Shown here: in pieces, positions 9,044-53,432 of the stretch
How positions within the stretch are numbered: position 1 is the first letter of the stretch
How the letters are laid out: the number at the start of each line of letters is the position of its first letter
Assembly (NCBI GenBank): GCA_017302715.1
Contig: JAFLCD010000007.1
Span: forward strand, 1-64,000
Reading direction: 5' to 3'
DNA: 64,000 nucleotides
From: Deltaproteobacteria bacterium
GTDB lineage: Bacteria > Bdellovibrionota > UBA2394
The notes under the pieces: model-generated
Told to the model about the DNA's origin: nothing
The model's database searches: none
What the model saw: the letters and a program-made list of their open reading frames with translations, nothing else
Made by a program: the position numbers and the translations under genes

Positions 9044-10648
9044 ATGAAAAAATTCTCTGTTCTTGTCGCAAGTCTTGCCATCGTTTCTTTTTTGGCTTGT
9101 TCTAAAAAACCTTCCTCTTCTGATTCGAGTTCGTCCTCGGCAAAAGTTTCTGGAAAAACTTTAGTCTTCGCAAGACCTGGTGATTCGGTTGGCCTCGACG
9201 GAGCGCGACATGAAGATGGAGAGTCGCTCAATATTGCAACTAATATGGTGGAGACTCTTGTTCGTTTTAAAACCGGAACGGGTGAGATCGAACCTTGGCT
9301 CGCAAAATCCTGGGATATCAGTAAAGACGCGAAGACTTATACATTTCATTTACGCGAGAACGTTAAATTTTCGGACGGCACTCCTTTCAACGCAGACGCG
9401 GTCGTTTTTAGCATCGAAAGACAGTGGAAAAAAGATCATCCTGCTTATCCATTCAGCACTCCTTATAAGTACTGGGAAAATATGACGATGAGTCAGATCG
9501 TCAAAGAAATTAAAAAGGTCGATGATATGACCGTGCAATTTGTTTTGCACAAACCGAACGCTCCTTTTATGGCCAACTTAACGATGCCGTTTATGACGAT
9601 CGTTAGTCCTACGGCTGTGATGAAATACAAAGAAAATTATGATCAGAATCCAGTCGGCACTGGACCTTATGTTTTAGGCAATTGGAAAAAAGATGATTCG
9701 ATGGAGTTGCTCGCCAATGAAAATTATTGGGGCGAAAAGGCCTTTATCAAGCGTGTGATCGTTCGTGTGATCCCGGATAATCAAGTTCGATTACTCGAGT
9801 TGAAGAATGGTTCCGTGCATATTATGGAATTTCCAAATCCTTCGGATGTGGCAAGTTTAAAAAACGATCCCCATATCAAACTTCTTCAGGCCGAAGGTTT
9901 GAATGTTGGATATCTCGCTTACAACACAACCAAAAAACCTTTTGATAATGTAGATGTGCGTCGAGCCCTTTCGATCGCGATCGATCGTAAAAGATTATTG
10001 GATGAAATTTATATCGGCTTTGGAGCGCTTGCGAAAAATTTAATTCCTCCTCAAGTGCTTGGTTTTAATTCTGCAGTTGCGGACCTTGAATACAATCCTG
10101 AAAAAGCGAAAGAACTTTTGAAGAAAGCTGGAATTCAAAATTTGACCGTCGATTTGTGGGCGATGCCAGTGGCAAGACCGTACAATCCGAATGCTCGAAA
10201 AATGGCGGAGTTCATTCAGGCCGATTGGAAGCGCGTAGGCGTCGATGCAAAAATCATCAGCTATGACTGGGGAACTTACTTAGATAAAATCGGAAAAGGT
10301 GAACACGAAACAGTTCTCATTGGTTGGCAAGGCGACAACGGAGATCCTGATAATTTCTTTTTTCCGCTGCTGTCTAAAGAATCGGCCAAAATTCCAACGC
10401 AGAATTACTCTTTCTATCGAGACGAAGCTGCGAGTTTGTTGATGAGACAGGCTCAAGAAACTCCATCGCCTGCAAAACGAGCAGAACTTTACAAAAAATT
10501 GCAGGTTCAACTCGCCAAAGATTTGCCGGTGATGAATATCGCACACTCTTTGATGATTGTTCCCACTCGAGCAGATGTAGAGGGTTATAAGATTCATCCG
10601 ATCGGTGGCGACAGACGTTTTGCCGAAGCAAAATGGAAGAACAATTAA
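9044..10648 (+). CDS. dppA: peptide ABC transporter substrate-binding lipoprotein (SBP family 5, DppA-like)
   Basis: 534 residues. The signal peptide ends in a lipobox (SFLAC, Cys about 19) followed by a Ser/Lys linker. The body is SBP_bac_5: TLVFARPGDSVGLD, ETLVRFKTGTGEIEPWLAKSW, YTFHLRENVKFSDGTPFNADAVVFS, NPVGTGPYVLGNWKKDD, and VDVRRALSIAIDRKRLLDEIY. It captures di- or oligopeptides in the periplasm for the two permeases that follow. Start codon preceded by GGAG. No DppD/DppF ATPase genes follow the operon, so ATPases must be encoded elsewhere. Confidence 0.92.
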   Translation: MKKFSVLVASLAIVSFLACSKKPSSSDSSSSSAKVSGKTLVFARPGDSVGLDGARHEDGESLNIATNMVETLVRFKTGTGEIEPWLAKSWDISKDAKTYTFHLRENVKFSDGTPFNADAVVFSIERQWKKDHPAYPFSTPYKYWENMTMSQIVKEIKKVDDMTVQFVLHKPNAPFMANLTMPFMTIVSPTAVMKYKENYDQNPVGTGPYVLGNWKKDDSMELLANENYWGEKAFIKRVIVRVIPDNQVRLLELKNGSVHIMEFPNPSDVASLKNDPHIKLLQAEGLNVGYLAYNTTKKPFDNVDVRRALSIAIDRKRLLDEIYIGFGALAKNLIPPQVLGFNSAVADLEYNPEKAKELLKKAGIQNLTVDLWAMPVARPYNPNARKMAEFIQADWKRVGVDAKIISYDWGTYLDKIGKGEHETVLIGWQGDNGDPDNFFFPLLSKESAKIPTQNYSFYRDEAASLLMRQAQETPSPAKRAELYKKLQVQLAKDLPVMNIAHSLMIVPTRADVEGYKIHPIGGDRRFAEAKWKNN

Positions 10649-12677: not shown

Positions 12678-13748
12678 ATGAAAAAACTGATTTTATTTTT
12701 CATATTTATTTTTTCGCAGTCAGTCTCTGCAGAAATTTGTCCGGAGATATTGAGAGACCTTCCTAACCTTGCAAAGTATGTTCATCCTGCTGACGCATTT
12801 AGAGATGAAGGTGGACTTCACTTCGACCCACAAAATTTAAGAGGTAGTATTTCAAAAATTTTAAATCATCCGAATGGCAATAAATTTAGACTTTTTTTTG
12901 AAGAACAAATTCGAGGATATGACGGACTCGCTCATTTAGAGCAGCGGGCTTCTAAAACCCTTCGTCTTCTTTTAGCAACATACAGAGCTTATGCTTATAA
13001 CTCCGAAGAATTAGTCAGCCTTGAATATCAAAGCAGTAAAGGTTTTTTTGAACGAGTAGATGCGTACGAACCGTCTTGGAGTGAATTCTGGAGTTTATTT
13101 TGCATTTTAGATTTAAAAAATTATTTCGATAAAAAGAAACAAGCTTACGATCAAAATACGAGATTACCAAAAAATTATGGTGAGCAAAATCCGAGAGTAG
13201 TATTTGATCCCAGTGTTTTAGATTTACGAACTTCAAACTATCCTGGCGGTCCCGATGCACTAGAGCGAGATTTAAAAGAAAAATTTGGAAGCTTTACTTC
13301 TTTATGGCTCCCCATGAATACACTGCTCTTTGGAACTCAAATTGCTCGACGTATGCATGGCACATACCCTGCGGCTTTTGGTTTTAGGGAATCTTTTGGA
13401 AAAGAAGATCGAATGGAGTTTGAAAGAATAAGTGCATTTTTTTCAGATCTTTTAAAAGACACTCCTTCAGCTTATACGGGCAGACGAGCTAACGTGTTTT
13501 CCGCTAAAATAACTGAGGCCATGCAAGAAAAAGCAAATTATCTCTTCATCTCAAATGATACATTATTTAATGCGTTTTTAAATATTCCAAGAGCTGAACA
13601 GAGTGATTTCGAAATGAATTCAATTCTAAGCGAGCCTTTTATACTTCCAAATGGAAAAGCTCGCACGATCAGAATCTACCTCACCGATCATTTAACTCGA
13701 AAAAATTTTCAAATTGAAATCATAAGCGTTCAAAACCTCAATAACTGA
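12678..13748 (+). CDS. secreted protein of unknown function
   Basis: 356 residues with a clear signal peptide (LILFFIFIFSQSVSAEI). I recognise no domain in the mature part. It has two Cys near the start of the mature protein region and around residue 142, an N-terminal helical half (KILNHPNGNKFRLFFEEQIRGYDG, ASKTLRLLLATYRAYAY) and a C-terminal half that may carry beta strands (ARTIRIYLTDHLTRKNFQIEII). The sigma-54-like promoter just upstream suggests tightly switched expression. Its last 19 bp overlap the convergent flagellin gene. Confidence 0.6.
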   Translation: MKKLILFFIFIFSQSVSAEICPEILRDLPNLAKYVHPADAFRDEGGLHFDPQNLRGSISKILNHPNGNKFRLFFEEQIRGYDGLAHLEQRASKTLRLLLATYRAYAYNSEELVSLEYQSSKGFFERVDAYEPSWSEFWSLFCILDLKNYFDKKKQAYDQNTRLPKNYGEQNPRVVFDPSVLDLRTSNYPGGPDALERDLKEKFGSFTSLWLPMNTLLFGTQIARRMHGTYPAAFGFRESFGKEDRMEFERISAFFSDLLKDTPSAYTGRRANVFSAKITEAMQEKANYLFISNDTLFNAFLNIPRAEQSDFEMNSILSEPFILPNGKARTIRIYLTDHLTRKNFQIEIISVQNLNN

Positions 13749-15685
13749 AGCACAATTTGCAAATTCATATTCGCTTGAGTAAGCACACTTGCTTGAGCTT
13801 GTCGCAAGAACTGTTGCTTCATCAATTCAGCTGATTCATCAGCGTAATCCGTATCAATGATATTGGATCTGGCTTGAGAAATGTTTTCACGCATCACTTG
13901 ATCGTTAACCAATGCGTAGTCCAAGCGACTTTGTTGAGCTCCGATCGTCGCGCGTGCTGAACCTAAATTTGAAAGCGCAGTACTTAATGTGGCCAACATA
14001 TTTTGCGCGTAAGTTTGAGTCGCAATCGAAAGAGTTGGATAGGTGTATGAAATCGTATTGGTCGTGTTGGTTACATAAACGGAGTTGGCAGAGTTCGAGC
14101 TTGCCGTGACGATATCTGCCACTCCATCCCCATTGACGTCGCCTGTCGTAATAAAACTTCCATTGGTGACGGCATTCAAAACAACTTCAGTTCCAAATCC
14201 ACCGGAGCCATTTCCGCTGAAGCGTGAAATCGTTTGGTTCACTGGATCATCAATAATGATATCGACGTATCCATCGCCCGTAATATCGGTAACACCTAAG
14301 CCGCCCGTGCTATTGAATAAGGCCACTACTTTAGAAGCAGCCGCAATGGTTCCATCCCCATTTCCAAGAGATCTAAAAATTCCGGTGTGGTTAACGCCTT
14401 GGTCGAGATAACTTAAGATATCGACATTTCCATTATTGTTCACATCACTCAAAATAATACTGCTCACATTTGCTGAAGCCGTTGCAGAACCTGTTGAATC
14501 TAAAACTTGGGTTGCCTTAAGAGTAAAAGTTTTGTCACCGTTACTCGTATAAGTTTTGTAATTTCCTCTGTTAGCCGCTCGCCCACCGATGACGATATCA
14601 TCTCGTGAATCATTGTTGAGATTTCCTGCGGTAATCGATTGGCCCACAAATGCTGCGACTGAAAAAGTAGTGCGTGCACCAAAACTTCCGACTCCCGTAT
14701 TTTGAAAGCTCGAAACATAAGAGTTGGCACCTGTATCGATTGTGGCAATGTCCTTATATCCGTCGCCGTTAAAATCTCCCACCGCAACACCCACAGCATT
14801 TCCTTCGGTGGTGGAATTTGTAATCAGAAACGACGACGCGCTGACCGATGTAGTTGAACTTGTATTTTTATAAACGCTAATCGTGTTTGAACTTCCGTTC
14901 GCCGTAACGAAATCATATTTTCCATCGTTGTTAAAATCGGCCACGGCTAAATCTGTCGCGTTTTGATCGGCCGCCACGGTAAAGCGAGATTGAAAAGTTC
15001 CATCTCCCACTCCCAGCGCAATTGAAATCGTATCATCTACTACATCTAGCGTGACCATATCGGCGTATCCATCTCCATTGATGTCGCCAAGCTTCGTGAT
15101 CGCTGGGGCAGATCCCATGCTTACATCATTTTTAGCGGTGACGCTGCCAGTTCCATAATAGGTAGTTGAAGAAGTTGCGGAGAAAATCGAATTCGTCTGC
15201 GTGCTCGGCAAAGTGAGACCAATAGAATCGCCTTTTGTTGTTCCGACCTGAATATCTTTTGTTCCAAAACTTCCATCTAAAAGTTTTACGCCGTTGAAAT
15301 CAGTTTGCGCGGTGATTCGCTGAAATTCTGCGATCAATTGTTGAAACTCCGTATCTAAATAAGAGCGATCTGTTGATGAAAGACTTCCATTCGCCGACTG
15401 AATAGCAAGTTCTCGCATTCTCTGAACGATCGAGGTTTGTATATCAATGGCACTATCTGCCGTGGCAAGAGCACCGTACGACTCATTAATATTTTGTATC
15501 GCTCGACTTAAACCTCGAGCTTGAGCTTCAAGACCTGTTGAAATGGCGAGACCAGCAGGATCGTCCTGCGCCGAATTAATTCTCTTGCCTGAAGAAAGAC
15601 GAGCGAGCGCGCGCGAAATGGCATTCGACGAAATTTGCATTTGTCGCTGCGCTGTCATCGCTGGAATGTTTGTTCCGACTTTCAA
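13730..15685 (-). CDS. flagellin with a seven-repeat FG-GAP (beta-propeller) insert
   Basis: About 651 residues. Residues 1-155 are a normal flagellin D0/D1 half (VGTNIPAMTAQRQM, RLSSGKRINSAQDDPAGLAI, QRMRELAIQSANGSLSS, FNGVKLLDGSFG), and about 555-651 the C-terminal half (RATIGAQQSRLDYALVND, NIIDTDYADESAELMKQQ, ending LQLLRF). In between, instead of a usual D2/D3 region, lie seven FG-GAP/VCBS repeats with calcium-loop motifs (for example GDINGDGYAD, ADFNNDGKYD, GDFNGDGYKD, TDITGDGYVD) spaced 49-59 residues apart, starting near 201, 250, 304, 355, 414, 467 and 516. Seven such repeats build a closed seven-bladed propeller in integrin-like proteins. I chose TTG at 15685 because GGAGG lies 6 nt before it and it gives the usual flagellin N-terminus; a GTG at 15700 lies in the same frame. 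No other flagellar gene is nearby. Confidence 0.92.
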   Translation of the reverse strand: MKVGTNIPAMTAQRQMQISSNAISRALARLSSGKRINSAQDDPAGLAISTGLEAQARGLSRAIQNINESYGALATADSAIDIQTSIVQRMRELAIQSANGSLSSTDRSYLDTEFQQLIAEFQRITAQTDFNGVKLLDGSFGTKDIQVGTTKGDSIGLTLPSTQTNSIFSATSSTTYYGTGSVTAKNDVSMGSAPAITKLGDINGDGYADMVTLDVVDDTISIALGVGDGTFQSRFTVAADQNATDLAVADFNNDGKYDFVTANGSSNTISVYKNTSSTTSVSASSFLITNSTTEGNAVGVAVGDFNGDGYKDIATIDTGANSYVSSFQNTGVGSFGARTTFSVAAFVGQSITAGNLNNDSRDDIVIGGRAANRGNYKTYTSNGDKTFTLKATQVLDSTGSATASANVSSIILSDVNNNGNVDILSYLDQGVNHTGIFRSLGNGDGTIAAASKVVALFNSTGGLGVTDITGDGYVDIIIDDPVNQTISRFSGNGSGGFGTEVVLNAVTNGSFITTGDVNGDGVADIVTASSNSANSVYVTNTTNTISYTYPTLSIATQTYAQNMLATLSTALSNLGSARATIGAQQSRLDYALVNDQVMRENISQARSNIIDTDYADESAELMKQQFLRQAQASVLTQANMNLQIVLQLLRF

Positions 15686-15726
15686 ACGATTCCTCCGCAC
15701 TGCATTATGATTAGATCAATCAACAC

Positions 15727-30436: not shown

Positions 30437-32995
30437 TTAGAGCTTCGACTGATTTGCTCCCCCACAATCAGGAGGCAAATTTCCATTTACTAATGTCGAA
30501 ATCGCATTGCGCACGGAACTTAAATTGGATGAATTTTCACTACACGTAGACCAACAATATCCAGAGTGAGTGGCACGATAGGCGCTTTGCACTCCCGCTA
30601 CCGGCGTAAATTTTCCGTCTCCTAATTTGGAAGCTCTTGAATAATTGGGAAGACGAGTATAATCGGCATTATTCGGATCAAAATAAGGAGCCGTACAAGC
30701 CGCGATACTTGGAGCGCCATGATCGTCATTAAACATCTGGGCGACGTCACAAGAATAATAACGTAATCCTGGGGACTGATTCGAAGAAGTGACCACTCCA
30801 TAATTTACAAGAAACGCGAGATGAGAACCCGAAGACGGTAAAGCCGTCGAAGGATTTCCTGCCACGGCTGTTGAAGTTCTAAAATCCCATCGTCGACTAA
30901 ATGCAGAATTTTTATCACTTGGGTCACTCGACCAATCAGAAGTTGGTGGATGATCAAATAGACACTGACAAAGTGCTGCGCGATCTGGAGTTAATCCATC
31001 CGTAAAATCTGCACCTGTAATTTTGTAAGCAGTCGCTGAAGAATCCCAAGTGTTGGGACAATAGAGTGACGAGGTTTGTCTCGCCTTTGTATTGATGTCG
31101 ACATTACAAAGCATTCGAAAATCAGCGTAGGCGTTCATGATGAGCCCAGACAATTTTCCGTTCTCATCCATATTATAACTGAGGCATCCGCACTTTGCTT
31201 TCCATGGATCCGTTAAATTGCTGAGATTCGAACTTACGCCTACTCCATTCATCCTTTGCAAATGAGCAGGTCCGTACAATTGCCCAGCAGCGCAATTAAG
31301 ATAGCGAGCTTTGTTGGTGCCGTCGGCGGTACCTGCTGCTGGAGTCGAGGAGGTATCAAATTTATACCAAGCTGCCGTACGCCCGGTGGATGGAGAAAAA
31401 TCTCCCCAAGCTTCAAGCATCGCTGCCGAACCCGAAACACCTGGAGTCGCTCCAGGAAATGGATTTTTTAAAATATACGCGTTGGGAGACTGAGTGACGG
31501 CATCAAATTGTTGAGAGATAAAAAGTGGATTGGTTACAGGAGAATTAGGCTGCATGGCATCGCATGCAAGTCCGTAGGCTGCATGTTTTTGTTTGAATTC
31601 GAAACTATTACAGCCATAAAATTTTCCGCAAGCATCGAGCTGCGCCACATCTCTTGAACTCATCGAAGAAAGTGGAGATCCCACGGTTGCTGCTACTGTG
31701 ATTTTGCTCCAGTCGATCTCAGGTTGAAAAAAGTCTCCATTTGAGTTTGTTCCGCACTGACAATAATCGGATGTAACTTTAGTAGGATCTTTCGCATTGA
31801 TTCCTGAATAACGTCCGTAGCCTTCCCAATCATCTGGAGGCGGCCAGGTATTAGCAGCCCAAGTGGTATTGTTAAAATATCCGCTGCAAGATTCTTTACA
31901 TCTATTTTTTGAAAGTGGAACGCAGCTTAAATCCGTAAGCTGAGAAGCCGAAGAACTCTTGGCGTAAGTGGCCACATTGATAGATTCATTTTTCTTAAGA
32001 TTTAAAAATCCAGAACTGTCCTGAGAAAATCCGCCGCTATTATTGGCGGCACCAATATCTACTTTACCCAAAGATTTTTCACCGCGAGTCGAAATATCCA
32101 TACTCACCGCTGCGAGGTCAGACCATTTTGGAACTCTGAGCGTTGTGTCTGTGGGAGTACAAGGACTCATCGAATTTAAATCCGCAGTTGAAAACTCTCG
32201 CACCGATTTACAAACGCTTCCCAAACGAACGTAAAGATTTTGTTGGGGAGTCATTCCATTTGTATAAGTGAAACTCAATTGAAAAGGATTTGAAACAGAA
32301 GCTAGCCGACTGACCGCCACTGTTTTTGCTCCAGGATTTTCGGTACGAATAAGTTGGCCACTGGAATTTGGAGCATAGGTAACAACATTCAAAGCTCTTA
32401 CCCAAGTCGTTGCAGATGTAATCTCACGACTCAAAGCTGTTGTATCAATACTCGCTTTGCTAATCGTCAAAGTATTTAATTTAAAAACACCACCACTTGC
32501 CGATGAACTACCTTTTTCATTTTTGACGATATAAGAATTCGTAGAGTTTGAGACGAAGAAATAATCGTAAGTATCGAGAGCTCCCTGAAAAAATTTGCCA
32601 TTATTTTCGGCCGTATTAATGGTGCCCTGAAAATTTGCATTTCCGGCGAGGCTATCAATTCTCTGTGCAATATCTGAAAACGCTTCTTGGTAAATGGTGA
32701 GCATCGGACCATTGGCTGTAGAACTTACCGAAACTCCAGAAGGTAAATCCGCAGTGCCAGCGCCCGTTGCTGATGTGACTCGAACAGCTTTCGCTAAATC
32801 GTTTCTCATCATTTCGACCAAAGTTGCTGAACTTTGCTGAAGACTCATTTGCTCGCTCACTAAAGATCTTTGAGTCGAGCCCATAAAAATGGAATAAATC
32901 GTCACAGCAGCAATTAAAGCTGTGATCAAAATCGCCACAGTTAATTCAATGAGACTAAAGCCAGAACTTGGCCTTTTAGAGATTCCTAATGCCAA
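30437..32995 (-). CDS. large PilW-like prepilin with Cys-rich domain
   Basis: About 852 residues. SGFSLIELTVAILITALIAAVTIYSIFMG is a perfect type III (prepilin) signal: cleavage after G by the PilD peptidase and E at +5. Normal PilW is about 350 residues; here the C-terminal 600 residues hold many Cys in clusters (KNRCKESCSGYF, YCQCGTNS, DACGKFYGCNSF, AKCGCLSYN, LCQCLFDHP). I chose TTG at 32995: AGGAGG lies 9 nt before, and the longer frame to 33043 lacks a site. The Cys pairs point to a disulfide-stabilised extracellular domain, perhaps a tip adhesin. Confidence 0.7.
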   Translation of the reverse strand: MALGISKRPSSGFSLIELTVAILITALIAAVTIYSIFMGSTQRSLVSEQMSLQQSSATLVEMMRNDLAKAVRVTSATGAGTADLPSGVSVSSTANGPMLTIYQEAFSDIAQRIDSLAGNANFQGTINTAENNGKFFQGALDTYDYFFVSNSTNSYIVKNEKGSSSASGGVFKLNTLTISKASIDTTALSREITSATTWVRALNVVTYAPNSSGQLIRTENPGAKTVAVSRLASVSNPFQLSFTYTNGMTPQQNLYVRLGSVCKSVREFSTADLNSMSPCTPTDTTLRVPKWSDLAAVSMDISTRGEKSLGKVDIGAANNSGGFSQDSSGFLNLKKNESINVATYAKSSSASQLTDLSCVPLSKNRCKESCSGYFNNTTWAANTWPPPDDWEGYGRYSGINAKDPTKVTSDYCQCGTNSNGDFFQPEIDWSKITVAATVGSPLSSMSSRDVAQLDACGKFYGCNSFEFKQKHAAYGLACDAMQPNSPVTNPLFISQQFDAVTQSPNAYILKNPFPGATPGVSGSAAMLEAWGDFSPSTGRTAAWYKFDTSSTPAAGTADGTNKARYLNCAAGQLYGPAHLQRMNGVGVSSNLSNLTDPWKAKCGCLSYNMDENGKLSGLIMNAYADFRMLCNVDINTKARQTSSLYCPNTWDSSATAYKITGADFTDGLTPDRAALCQCLFDHPPTSDWSSDPSDKNSAFSRRWDFRTSTAVAGNPSTALPSSGSHLAFLVNYGVVTSSNQSPGLRYYSCDVAQMFNDDHGAPSIAACTAPYFDPNNADYTRLPNYSRASKLGDGKFTPVAGVQSAYRATHSGYCWSTCSENSSNLSSVRNAISTLVNGNLPPDCGGANQSKL

Positions 32996-33031
32996 AACGT
33001 ATACCCTCCTACCACACGTAAATACCTCTAA

Positions 33032-33037
33032 ATTATA
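33032..33037 (-). promoter_or_regulatory. -10 box of the pilin-like operon
   Basis: On the minus strand CCCTATAATTTAG contains a perfect TATAAT about 37 bp before the TTG start of the PilW-like gene. I could not find a clear -35 box at 17 nt, so an activator or an extended -10 element may be needed. Confidence 0.4.
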
Positions 33038-33112
33038 GGGCAAAGTGGCAAAGGCGTCGAATGAGAATCAGAAAAAGCTACGCAATCATTTCAACTAGAA
33101 ACTTTTTTCATA

Positions 33113-50204: not shown

Positions 50205-53200
50205 GTGGGTATGAACCTGAGGCTTTCTCCTTCGATCGTCTGGTTCGATAAGGCGCTTTCAAGAATTGAAAGCGAAAGGGCACGCTTTCGCACCATTTTT
50301 GTACGCGGCAAGCCACTCTCAGGAAAAAGTACTCTCCTCCAACAAATTGCCATAAAACTTAGAGCGTCTGCACAACCCGTTACCACTATTTCTTTTTCTG
50401 ACTCCTTGGATTTGTCTTCGGCATTAGAGCAAATTCTTTTAACCTTAGATACCAAACCCACTAGTCGCTCTCTTCCAGAACTTTTCGAACAACTGGTACA
50501 ACTTTGCGATCGCGAACATCGAATTTTAATTATCGATAATTTGCACAAAGTGCGAAACGCAAAACAGTTCATCGAATTCGTCATTAGAAATATGACCGAC
50601 GGAACTTTGATTGCTTCGGGGGATACCTTACCTGATTTGGATCCTTCGCTCGCTCTTGATTTATTTGTATTTCACAATGTGGGCTTAAGTTTTGAAGAAA
50701 CGGTTGAAATGATTTCTAAGTCTCACGTCAAGCTTCCTTCGTCCGCAGACAAAATGATTGAAAATATTTTCAAGATGACTGCAGGAAATCCATTTTTAAT
50801 CAAACTATTGCTCTCTCCTGCCATTCTTGAGGGCAGAGCTTTAAGTGAAGAAGATTTTCAAGCCAATATTTTAAACGCACGTGATTCATACTTTTACAAA
50901 ATATTTCAATCACTGAGCGTAGAAGTTTCAGATTTATTGAAAACGGCTTCATTAGTGCAATACGACTCTGCTCTTGAGTCAAAAGTCTTAAGCAGAGTGT
51001 CTAAAGAAGATCTTCAACAGCTTCTTGAAGTTGGCTTTTTAACGATGTCGTTTGATAGATACGCTCTCATCGCCGATACTAAAAGGTTTATTAGAAAAAC
51101 TTTAGGAGATCTCGAGAAGGAGCAGATTCATATACTTCTGAAAGAGTTTTCTGAAAATGAAGCTCATCTATCTGAGAAAGAAAAATTATTTCAATTCATA
51201 AAACTTGAGCAAGAAAAAGAAGCAATTCAAATCTTTGAAAAAATTGCGCCCGAGATGGATCGAACGGGAGATACGATTGACTTACTTTATTTAAGCGAAA
51301 CTTTTTCCTCTCAGCTTTCGTGCGCTTCTATTTTGCTGAGAAGAAAATCGCTCGTTTATCTCAAACGACCGCATGAAGCGTTGGAAGAATTAAAAAAAGC
51401 ATTGAAGAGGGATTTCTCAGAAGAAGAAAAATTTCAGCTTTATTTTATGATTGCAAAGACGCTTTATCTACTCTCTGAGTTTGAAGAAGCTCTTCGTTAT
51501 ATACATCTTATTTTAGAAAAAACTCATGAGCATGATTTAAATCACATCCACGCACAGATTGAAAAAGCTTATATGCTTCTTCAGCGAGATCTAAAATCTT
51601 GCATTGAAAATCTAGAAACAGCTAGACGATCCATAAATTTAAAACACCTCGACCAATCAACGCTTAGAGGAGATCTAGAATTTGTTTATGGACTTTATTA
51701 TGAAGCACGAAGTGAATTAGCAGAAGCGGCTTATCACTACTCAAGCGCCACCAACTTTTACAAATCTTCTGGACTAAAATCAAAAGAGCTTATGTCTGCC
51801 TACAATACATTTTGCATGAATTATAATTTAGGGAGAGAAACTTCTTTAGAGGCCCTTGATTCTATCGAAGCAGAATGCAGACGTTACTCGTTCGAATATA
51901 TTATTGAATTTTGCAAACATTTTAGAGCCATGACGCTGATTAGCGCAGGAAGATTTCGAGAGGGAATAAAGATTCTTATTGCAATGACGCCTCCACTGAC
52001 AGAAAAAATCTTTCACTCCAATGAGATAAGTATTTTAAAAAGAATAGCTCAAGCTTATTGCGGCTCCTCTCACTTTTTAGCTGCTATGGCAGTTTTAGAA
52101 CCACTTACGATCAATCCAGGATCTTACGGGCAATTTTTTGAACATATGAAATCGCAAGTAAGCGCTTATCTCAACCCCGCGCTGGCACAGCCCAAGAAAA
52201 GTATTCTTAAAAAAAATTACGAGTCATTGGATAAAAAATTAGTGGTGGAATTACTGACCACACATTTAGAGCTTAATTTTAATTCGTATTTTCTTCACGA
52301 CGTCTCCGATGTTCTTTTAGCTTCTGAATTTAACGAAAGCGATACGGATTCGATTTTACATCTTCAGTTAAAATTTTTACGAGGCATTCATTTTTTTTTA
52401 ATGGGTCAAATTAAACGAGCGGAACAAGAATTCTATATTTCTTTGCCATTGGCCGAAAAATATTCTTTTCACTATTGGGAGTTTTTAAATCTTTTAGGGC
52501 TTTCTATGGCAGATCTACATTTTGAACGTTTCGATGCAGCTCTTTCAAAATCCACTAAGGCGGTAGATCTCATTTCACTCTTTGATCCGCTTCCTATTAC
52601 TGATCTTGCAAAAGCTATTTTAGGAATCGCTCATCTTAAATTGGGAGCTCAAAGTAATTTTGAAAAGCAGATGACCAGCATCCCATCGACAAGTCCTTAT
52701 GCCTATCTCGGTCTTATTTTGAGTCCATTTTTATTGGAATCTAAGCCTCCAGCGACTCCTTCCATTGATTCGGCACAGAAAAGCTTCTTTGATCTTTTAT
52801 TGACGAGACTAGGGCTCAATATTTTTAGAACATTTCGAGTTAAAACCATGAATAGTGAAAATATTTATTACGACTATCAACTCAATGAGTTTTCGATGAA
52901 TAATTACGATATCGTTATTGATGAAACAAAAGCCAAATGTCGAATTGGCAAAAAAAGTTTTGATCTAAATTCTCAGCCACTTTTAGAGAATATTCTAAGA
53001 TTTTTTATTTTGAGAGCAGGTAAAGAAACATCCAAAGAACTTTTGACTTCACATATCTGGCAAGAAAAATATAACCCTCTTGTTCACGATACTCGCATTT
53101 ACACGGCCATCAAAAGGCTGCGGGAACTTTTAAAACAAGGATCAAAAGAAAGCTTACTTCAAACTCAGGGCTCGCAGTACTTAATGGATTCAAAGATTCG

Positions 53201-53432
53201 ATATGCAATCATAAGTATGAGCACTCCTCTTGATAATTTATCGGAACGCCAAGACTGGATTTTTAAATTTATAGAAAGTCATCAATCGATCGATAGGTTA
53301 ACCGTTGAAAAAATGTTAAAAATTAGTCCTGCTTATGCGAAGCGTGAATTAAAAACGCTATCGGACAGAGGCCTTATCGAGAAAGTTGGCAAAGGTAAAA
53401 ATTCTCGATATCAAAAGGCCTCTCGATTTTAG
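50205..53432 (+). CDS. large ATPase-TPR transcriptional regulator with two winged helices
   Basis: 1075 residues. A STAND-like P-loop ATPase comes first: FVRGKPLSGKSTLLQQ (Walker A 35-43) and HRILIIDNLH (Walker B Asp near 111), with TAGNPFLIKLLL as the sensor segment. Residues about 330-860 are TPR-like helical repeats. Near 905-1000 is an OmpR-type winged helix (RIGKKSFDLNSQPLLENILRFFIL ... DTRIYTAIKRLRELL), and 1010-1072 a second MarR/ArsR-like winged helix (LTVEKMLKISPAYAKRELKTLSDRGLIEKVGKG). MalT-type regulators have one LuxR helix instead. It starts with GTG (alternatively ATG two codons later), divergent from the FeeM-binding protein-kinase operon, which it may control. Confidence 0.82.
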   Translation: MGMNLRLSPSIVWFDKALSRIESERARFRTIFVRGKPLSGKSTLLQQIAIKLRASAQPVTTISFSDSLDLSSALEQILLTLDTKPTSRSLPELFEQLVQLCDREHRILIIDNLHKVRNAKQFIEFVIRNMTDGTLIASGDTLPDLDPSLALDLFVFHNVGLSFEETVEMISKSHVKLPSSADKMIENIFKMTAGNPFLIKLLLSPAILEGRALSEEDFQANILNARDSYFYKIFQSLSVEVSDLLKTASLVQYDSALESKVLSRVSKEDLQQLLEVGFLTMSFDRYALIADTKRFIRKTLGDLEKEQIHILLKEFSENEAHLSEKEKLFQFIKLEQEKEAIQIFEKIAPEMDRTGDTIDLLYLSETFSSQLSCASILLRRKSLVYLKRPHEALEELKKALKRDFSEEEKFQLYFMIAKTLYLLSEFEEALRYIHLILEKTHEHDLNHIHAQIEKAYMLLQRDLKSCIENLETARRSINLKHLDQSTLRGDLEFVYGLYYEARSELAEAAYHYSSATNFYKSSGLKSKELMSAYNTFCMNYNLGRETSLEALDSIEAECRRYSFEYIIEFCKHFRAMTLISAGRFREGIKILIAMTPPLTEKIFHSNEISILKRIAQAYCGSSHFLAAMAVLEPLTINPGSYGQFFEHMKSQVSAYLNPALAQPKKSILKKNYESLDKKLVVELLTTHLELNFNSYFLHDVSDVLLASEFNESDTDSILHLQLKFLRGIHFFLMGQIKRAEQEFYISLPLAEKYSFHYWEFLNLLGLSMADLHFERFDAALSKSTKAVDLISLFDPLPITDLAKAILGIAHLKLGAQSNFEKQMTSIPSTSPYAYLGLILSPFLLESKPPATPSIDSAQKSFFDLLLTRLGLNIFRTFRVKTMNSENIYYDYQLNEFSMNNYDIVIDETKAKCRIGKKSFDLNSQPLLENILRFFILRAGKETSKELLTSHIWQEKYNPLVHDTRIYTAIKRLRELLKQGSKESLLQTQGSQYLMDSKIRYAIISMSTPLDNLSERQDWIFKFIESHQSIDRLTVEKMLKISPAYAKRELKTLSDRGLIEKVGKGKNSRYQKASRF

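Follow-up and report, generated by a model that had tools for sequence, protein, structure and literature searches.

On the minus strand of the window, meaning the whole 64,000-nucleotide stretch of DNA analyzed here, positions 13730..15685 hold a gene for a propeller flagellin of 651 amino acids, delimited by its open reading frame and Pfam matches and by alignment with 19 relatives, and running from a TTG start to a TGA stop at 13730-13732. A ribosome-binding site read from the sequence, GGAGG (15692..15696, minus strand, as for all parts of the gene described below), lies 6 nucleotides 5' of the TTG. A GTG at 15700 is a second in-frame start candidate, and a less likely one because M-[RK]-[IVL] mostly opens the relatives at the position of the TTG. 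A sequence-only reading of this locus had taken the conserved ends of flagellin to be intact, and both ends are recovered above their Pfam cut-offs: Flagellin_N at residues 4-139 (E 1.1e-37; 129.6 bits against a cut-off of 26.6) and Flagellin_C at residues 566-649 (E 2.4e-14; 53.9 bits against 23). Drawn from Pfam together with an AlphaFold2 model, the N-terminal D0/D1 core spans residues 1-169 (15179..15685) and includes the two strands of the D1 hairpin (142-146 and 154-158), while the C-terminal core (13733..14017) comprises two helices, 557-610 and 614-650. The protein is closer to flagellin than to FlgL/HAP3, with flagellin models reaching up to 221.8 bits and the FlgL model TIGR02550 giving 83.5 bits against a cut-off of 127.2. 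A distinct FlgL-like gene is present after FlgK (L028:3590-4537).

The gene stands alone. Its neighbors are a MeaB-like gene and a convergent gene without a Pfam match (12678-13748), the latter sitting behind a peptide-transport cluster (SBP_bac_5 at 9044). Elsewhere in the window, two large open reading frames of 868 amino acids (30440-33043, minus strand) and 1075 amino acids (50205-53429, plus strand) are without an NCBIfam match at 1e-5. The flagellar operon of the source genome, on C14, contains genes for FlgI, a FlgJ-like rod-binding protein, FlgM, FlgN, FlgK, the FlgL-like protein, an unmatched 113-amino-acid protein, FliW, and the plain flagellin L028, and its presence indicates that the machinery for flagellin export and assembly is available. 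Genes for propeller flagellins are accessory and lie dispersed in the genome, outside this operon and its plain flagellin. A search for sigma-28-like promoters upstream of the flagellin genes found nothing consistent, the single full-pattern match lying about 300 bp upstream of one gene. A PseD/Maf-like flagellin-modification gene (L025:1406-3238, on C12) directly precedes another plain flagellin, L025, which suggests that the filament is glycosylated.

The insert and its predicted fold

Between the flagellin ends, Pfam finds FG-GAP_3 (1.4e-34, six stretches) and FG-GAP (3.3e-24, six stretches). The earlier claim that seven FG-GAP/VCBS repeats replace the variable region is borne out, with seven loops whose starts lie 49-59 residues apart. 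By inspection and pattern search the calcium-loop motif is canonical in blade 1 (DINGDGYAD, residues 201-209; 15059..15085), blade 2 (DFNNDGKYD, 250-258; 14912..14938), blade 3 (DFNGDGYKD, 304-312; 14750..14776), and blade 7 (DVNGDGVAD, 516-524; 14114..14140). Blade 5 has a relaxed form with N for D at position 5 (DVNNNGNVD, 414-422; 14420..14446), blade 6 a near-canonical loop with T for N/D at position 3 (DITGDGYVD, 467-475; 14261..14287), and blade 4 a degenerate loop with N for the first D and S for G (NLNNDSRDD, 355-363; 14597..14623). The suggestion that every repeat carries D-x-N-x-D-G was therefore too generous: five of the seven loops (the four canonical ones and that at 414) fit the search pattern D.[ND].[DN][GS]..D, and those at 467 and 355 do not. 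Five matches in the insert nonetheless compare with a mean of 0.02 and a maximum of 2 in 20,000 shuffles. Judging from the motif alone, the predicted AB loops would bind calcium.

Taken together, Pfam, AlphaFold2, and Foldseek predict a seven-bladed beta-propeller at residues 182-541 (14063..15142). The AlphaFold2 model, built on a shallow alignment of 19 sequences, has a mean pLDDT of 78.9 and a pTM of 0.57, with most propeller blocks at 72-93 pLDDT and the orientation of the domains unsure. It places helices at both ends of the protein and 28 strands over residues 182-541, as expected of seven blades of four strands each. Foldseek against the PDB ranks flagellins first, followed by the propellers of UmbA4 (9oee), ITFG2/KICSTOR, CRTAC1, integrin alpha-V, and LGI1 (TMt 0.74 for LGI1 and 0.59 for integrin alpha-V). 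The strand count and these matches support, as a prediction, the proposal of a complete seven-bladed propeller between the flagellin halves; closure of the ring is strongly suggested by strand order, in which strand 182-189 probably completes the last blade (7) in the usual manner of ring closure. A separate AlphaFold2 run on the propeller alone, from a single sequence without homologues, gave a pLDDT of 34 and was set aside. Given that the D1 hairpin is retained in the model, the propeller occupies the place of D2/D3.

The window protein resembles FliC (PF00669 and PF00700, with outer D2/D3) in both conserved ends, in the point of insertion after the D1 hairpin, and in having a variable outer region, but this region is a predicted seven-bladed FG-GAP propeller rather than one of the usual outer-domain folds, and the gene lies outside the flagellar operon. 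With other FG-GAP/VCBS propellers, such as the integrin alpha head, ITFG2, CRTAC1, and bacterial VCBS lipoproteins, it shares the repeat profile, the A-B calcium loop, and, by prediction, the seven blades, although those proteins are secreted or membrane-anchored and here the propeller is set between flagellin halves. Likewise, flagellinolysins (PMC5595980) carry a whole functional domain of another family within the flagellin hypervariable region; that domain is a metallopeptidase with HExxH, whereas the insert here is a propeller, the 651-residue sequence contains no HExxH, and Pfam gives no peptidase match. Domain inserts in flagellins are therefore already known, and in that survey (Eckhard 2017, PMC5595980) 61 insert domains are counted in 26,587 flagellins, with FG-GAP not among the ten commonest, the tenth of which has 10 cases. 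In agreement with the sequence-only reading, which knew of no described FG-GAP flagellin, the open-access literature, with its key surveys covered in part, yielded no description of a flagellin with FG-GAP or VCBS. The propeller insert thus appears new, though the architecture may already be present in a database listing.

Distribution and history of the propeller flagellins

The proposed search for FG-GAP flagellins in relatives was rewarding. The source genome (2.39 Mb, 96% complete) carries seven, namely the window gene and others on C1, C12 (two), C9, C14, and C6, the last incomplete as it runs off the contig end. Its flagellins without FG-GAP repeats are L025 (511 amino acids), L028 (509), L029 (495, with a Flagellin_IN motif), and the short L030 (246). 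Propeller flagellins occur in all five genomes of the family that the analysis covered, each of its own genus, and one genome has about 12 complete or partial copies. The flagellins seen in other families of the phylum are plain and about 280-340 amino acids long. When 369 genomes of the phylum, from 182 genera, were searched with a profile, full-length propeller flagellins turned up in this family and in none of the other 364 genomes. At the thresholds used, and with three or four candidates scored per genome in the large scans, so that absences are strong but not complete, other phyla likewise gave no full-length match in 398 genomes (the Limnohabitans phylum), 294 (the phylum of a Planctomycetota genome), 379 (counting a near-identical repeat sample once), and 7. 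Matches in these samples were confined to the propeller part. Flagellin ends were found in none of 1932 open reading frames from 37 VCBS-type loci (contig scan) and the checked propeller matches outside the family. Plasmid tblastn returned ordinary flagellins and FG-GAP proteins, with no match reaching 80% query coverage at one place.

Several members and matches depart from the common layout. One giant propeller flagellin of 1581 amino acids (L118:2853-7595, G001) has about 950 extra residues, among them seven repeats of about 107 amino acids with a YYVW motif, apparently inserted between blades 3 and 4. Another, of 861 amino acids (L126:2011-4593, G002), has well over 200 extra residues between the N-terminal core and the seven motif sites. 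A 520-amino-acid lipoprotein-like VCBS protein of the same phylum (L137:1501-3060, G342) carries seven motifs and matches the propeller part of the profile over a long stretch (8e-90); a protein of this kind is a possible donor of the insert. In a fourth case (L129:2426-4360, G004) one in-frame stop splits the frame of a propeller flagellin, indicating either a decayed copy or an assembly error.

This split paralogue in another genome speaks for the notion that the window product is not a filament subunit at all, being instead a secreted monomer or the product of a decaying gene, or that the open reading frame is an assembly artefact. Such an outcome is scarcely credible. The 19 relatives have intact frames with conserved D0/D1 regions, the ribosome-binding sites are strong, the motif columns are invariant, and recurrence in five genera is impossible for an artefact. 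Misassembly or fusion of two genes, named at the outset as what could undo the finding, is excluded in practice because one architecture is common to 20 genes that were aligned across several genera of the family.

In a tree of the D0/D1 cores the flagellins of the family form one clade (100/100), in which the plain pairs L028/L100 and L025/L123 branch first, followed by the propeller flagellins (98/94), among which the long branches of L029 and L030 fall. When L029, L030, and a third long-branch row, L127, are removed, 20 propeller flagellins form one clade at 99/95; with L029 and L030 kept, monophyly of all 21 propeller flagellins is rejected (p 0.009). L029 and L030, which lack the insert, may have lost it secondarily, or their position may be a long-branch artefact. 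A single insertion of the propeller followed by lineage-specific expansion is the simplest reading of the cores, and these two results together make a single origin likely, short of proof. Resolution is poor in the tree of propeller domains, where 5 of 44 inner branches are starred, and that tree serves only as a pointer to a pilin-like relative.

The propeller as a putative binding head

That relative is a 1070-amino-acid protein of the source genome (L031:4548-7757, on C12) with a hydrophobic pilin-like segment at its start. The gene about 20 bases upstream has the prepilin signature GFSIIELM (TIGR02532) and a weak PilW match, and by these sequence features the 1070-residue product would be part of a type IV pilus. 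Over 347 amino acids, the propeller of this product shares 52% identity with that of the C9 flagellin (L023); for the other flagellins, identity along long stretches is about 38-39% at most. A binding module would be expected to occur in this way, as the same head on two kinds of surface appendage protein, and swimming mechanics alone hardly account for it, which suggests an exchangeable binding head in preference to a purely structural spacer. In the latter capacity the propeller would be a structural or hydrodynamic outer domain, propellers lying side by side giving the filament a thickened or screw-shaped surface and so adjusting its waveform or its swimming in viscous media, without any specific ligand. 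Outer domains do act in this way in P. aeruginosa, E. coli O157:H7 and O127:H6, and Achromobacter (PMC12445082), and variation of the outer face could mean a mere lack of constraint. Even so, the pilin-like protein that bears the 52%-identical cassette has no part in swimming, and a screw surface needs fewer than seven divergent copies, leaving a purely mechanical role rather unlikely.

FG-GAP-type propeller domains elsewhere grip sugars or proteins, although non-adhesive roles also exist among them and count against an adhesive head. The best non-flagellin structural match is UmbA4 (PDB 9oee) of the Streptomyces umbrella particles, a propeller lectin that chooses its target species by surface glycopolymer and combines conserved calcium-type loops with divergent sugar-binding positions (PMC13274773). 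Conserved loops of the calcium type and divergent putative binding positions recur in the propeller flagellins, as does the presence of several diversified copies per genome; UmbA4, however, is a six-bladed component of a toxin particle from Actinomycetota, and glycan binding is demonstrated for it (PMC13274773) and a guess for the flagellins. The lectin match and the cassette shared with the pilin-like protein both lend support to ligand binding, and by analogy the window protein may bind ligands, glycans, or prey surfaces.

The heads are also the fastest-diverging part of these proteins, identity between the window protein and its relatives being 38-60% in the N-terminal core and 24-33% in the propeller. 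Among the propeller flagellins the AB and CD loops are conserved and the BC and DA loops variable. This one-sided variability was considered as proof of selection by ligands and dropped, since unrelated VCBS propellers used as a control vary alike and the asymmetry of a conserved calcium face and a variable face is thus generic. Both immunity and phages are known to target the outer domains of flagellins, and propellers far more divergent than their cores would suit decoys, that is, antigenic or phage-receptor variation in place of ligand binding. This is a very improbable account, given that the calcium loops and the seven-repeat layout are conserved across genera, as if one fold were retained, and that an unsystematic look revealed no switching mechanism.

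The best explanation, held with modest confidence, is that the usual outer domains were replaced by a propeller in the family ancestor and that the resulting gene multiplied to give filament-borne heads of an adhesive or lectin-like kind. A seven-bladed FG-GAP/VCBS propeller would have taken the place of D2/D3, probably in a single event, in the common ancestor of one family of Bdellovibrionota, after which the propeller flagellins would have multiplied into a diversifying multigene family, now with seven copies in the source genome. The conserved ends would direct flagellar export and D0/D1 polymerization along with plain flagellin, so that the propeller would project outward from D1. Calcium in the conserved AB loops would stiffen one face of the propeller, and the opposite face (BC and DA loops), variable among paralogues, would bind surface glycans or proteins of prey, particle, or biofilm.

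Exposure is the main doubt. In B. bacteriovorus, of the same phylum, the flagellum is sheathed and consists of segments formed by six flagellins (PMC2791853), and the flagella of Bacteriovorax are sheathed as well (PMC7175336). Should this family have such a sheath, it would hide the propeller, which might then lie beneath the sheath and keep it apart from the core as a spacer or bearing, with the multiple flagellins giving segments of different waveform. The parallel is real in that both groups have several scattered flagellin genes per genome, but the Bdellovibrio flagellins are of about 30 kDa and are without such inserts in their sheathed filament (PMC2791853). Further, in other families of the phylum the plain flagellins (about 280-340 amino acids) manage without any such domain, and a role in an exposed position is suggested by the link to a pilin-like protein; a spacer beneath a sheath is accordingly improbable.

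The outer domains of flagellins are usually regarded as variable decoration. The enzymatic flagellinolysins showed that these domains can carry function. It is possible, and is put forward tentatively, that the propellers are interchangeable polymorphic heads, displayed in high copy on filaments and on at least one type IV pilus-type protein, with different paralogues recognizing different surfaces such as prey or glycans. If this is true, the expanded, family-wide set of calcium-loop propellers on flagellins, one of which recurs as a cassette on a pilin-like protein, would mean that bacteria related to known predators use the filament as a multivalent recognition surface bearing very many copies of a head. 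More broadly, the propeller flagellins offer a concrete way to test the part of flagella in the recognition of surfaces and prey, and a natural scaffold for the display of large domains in studies of the filament.
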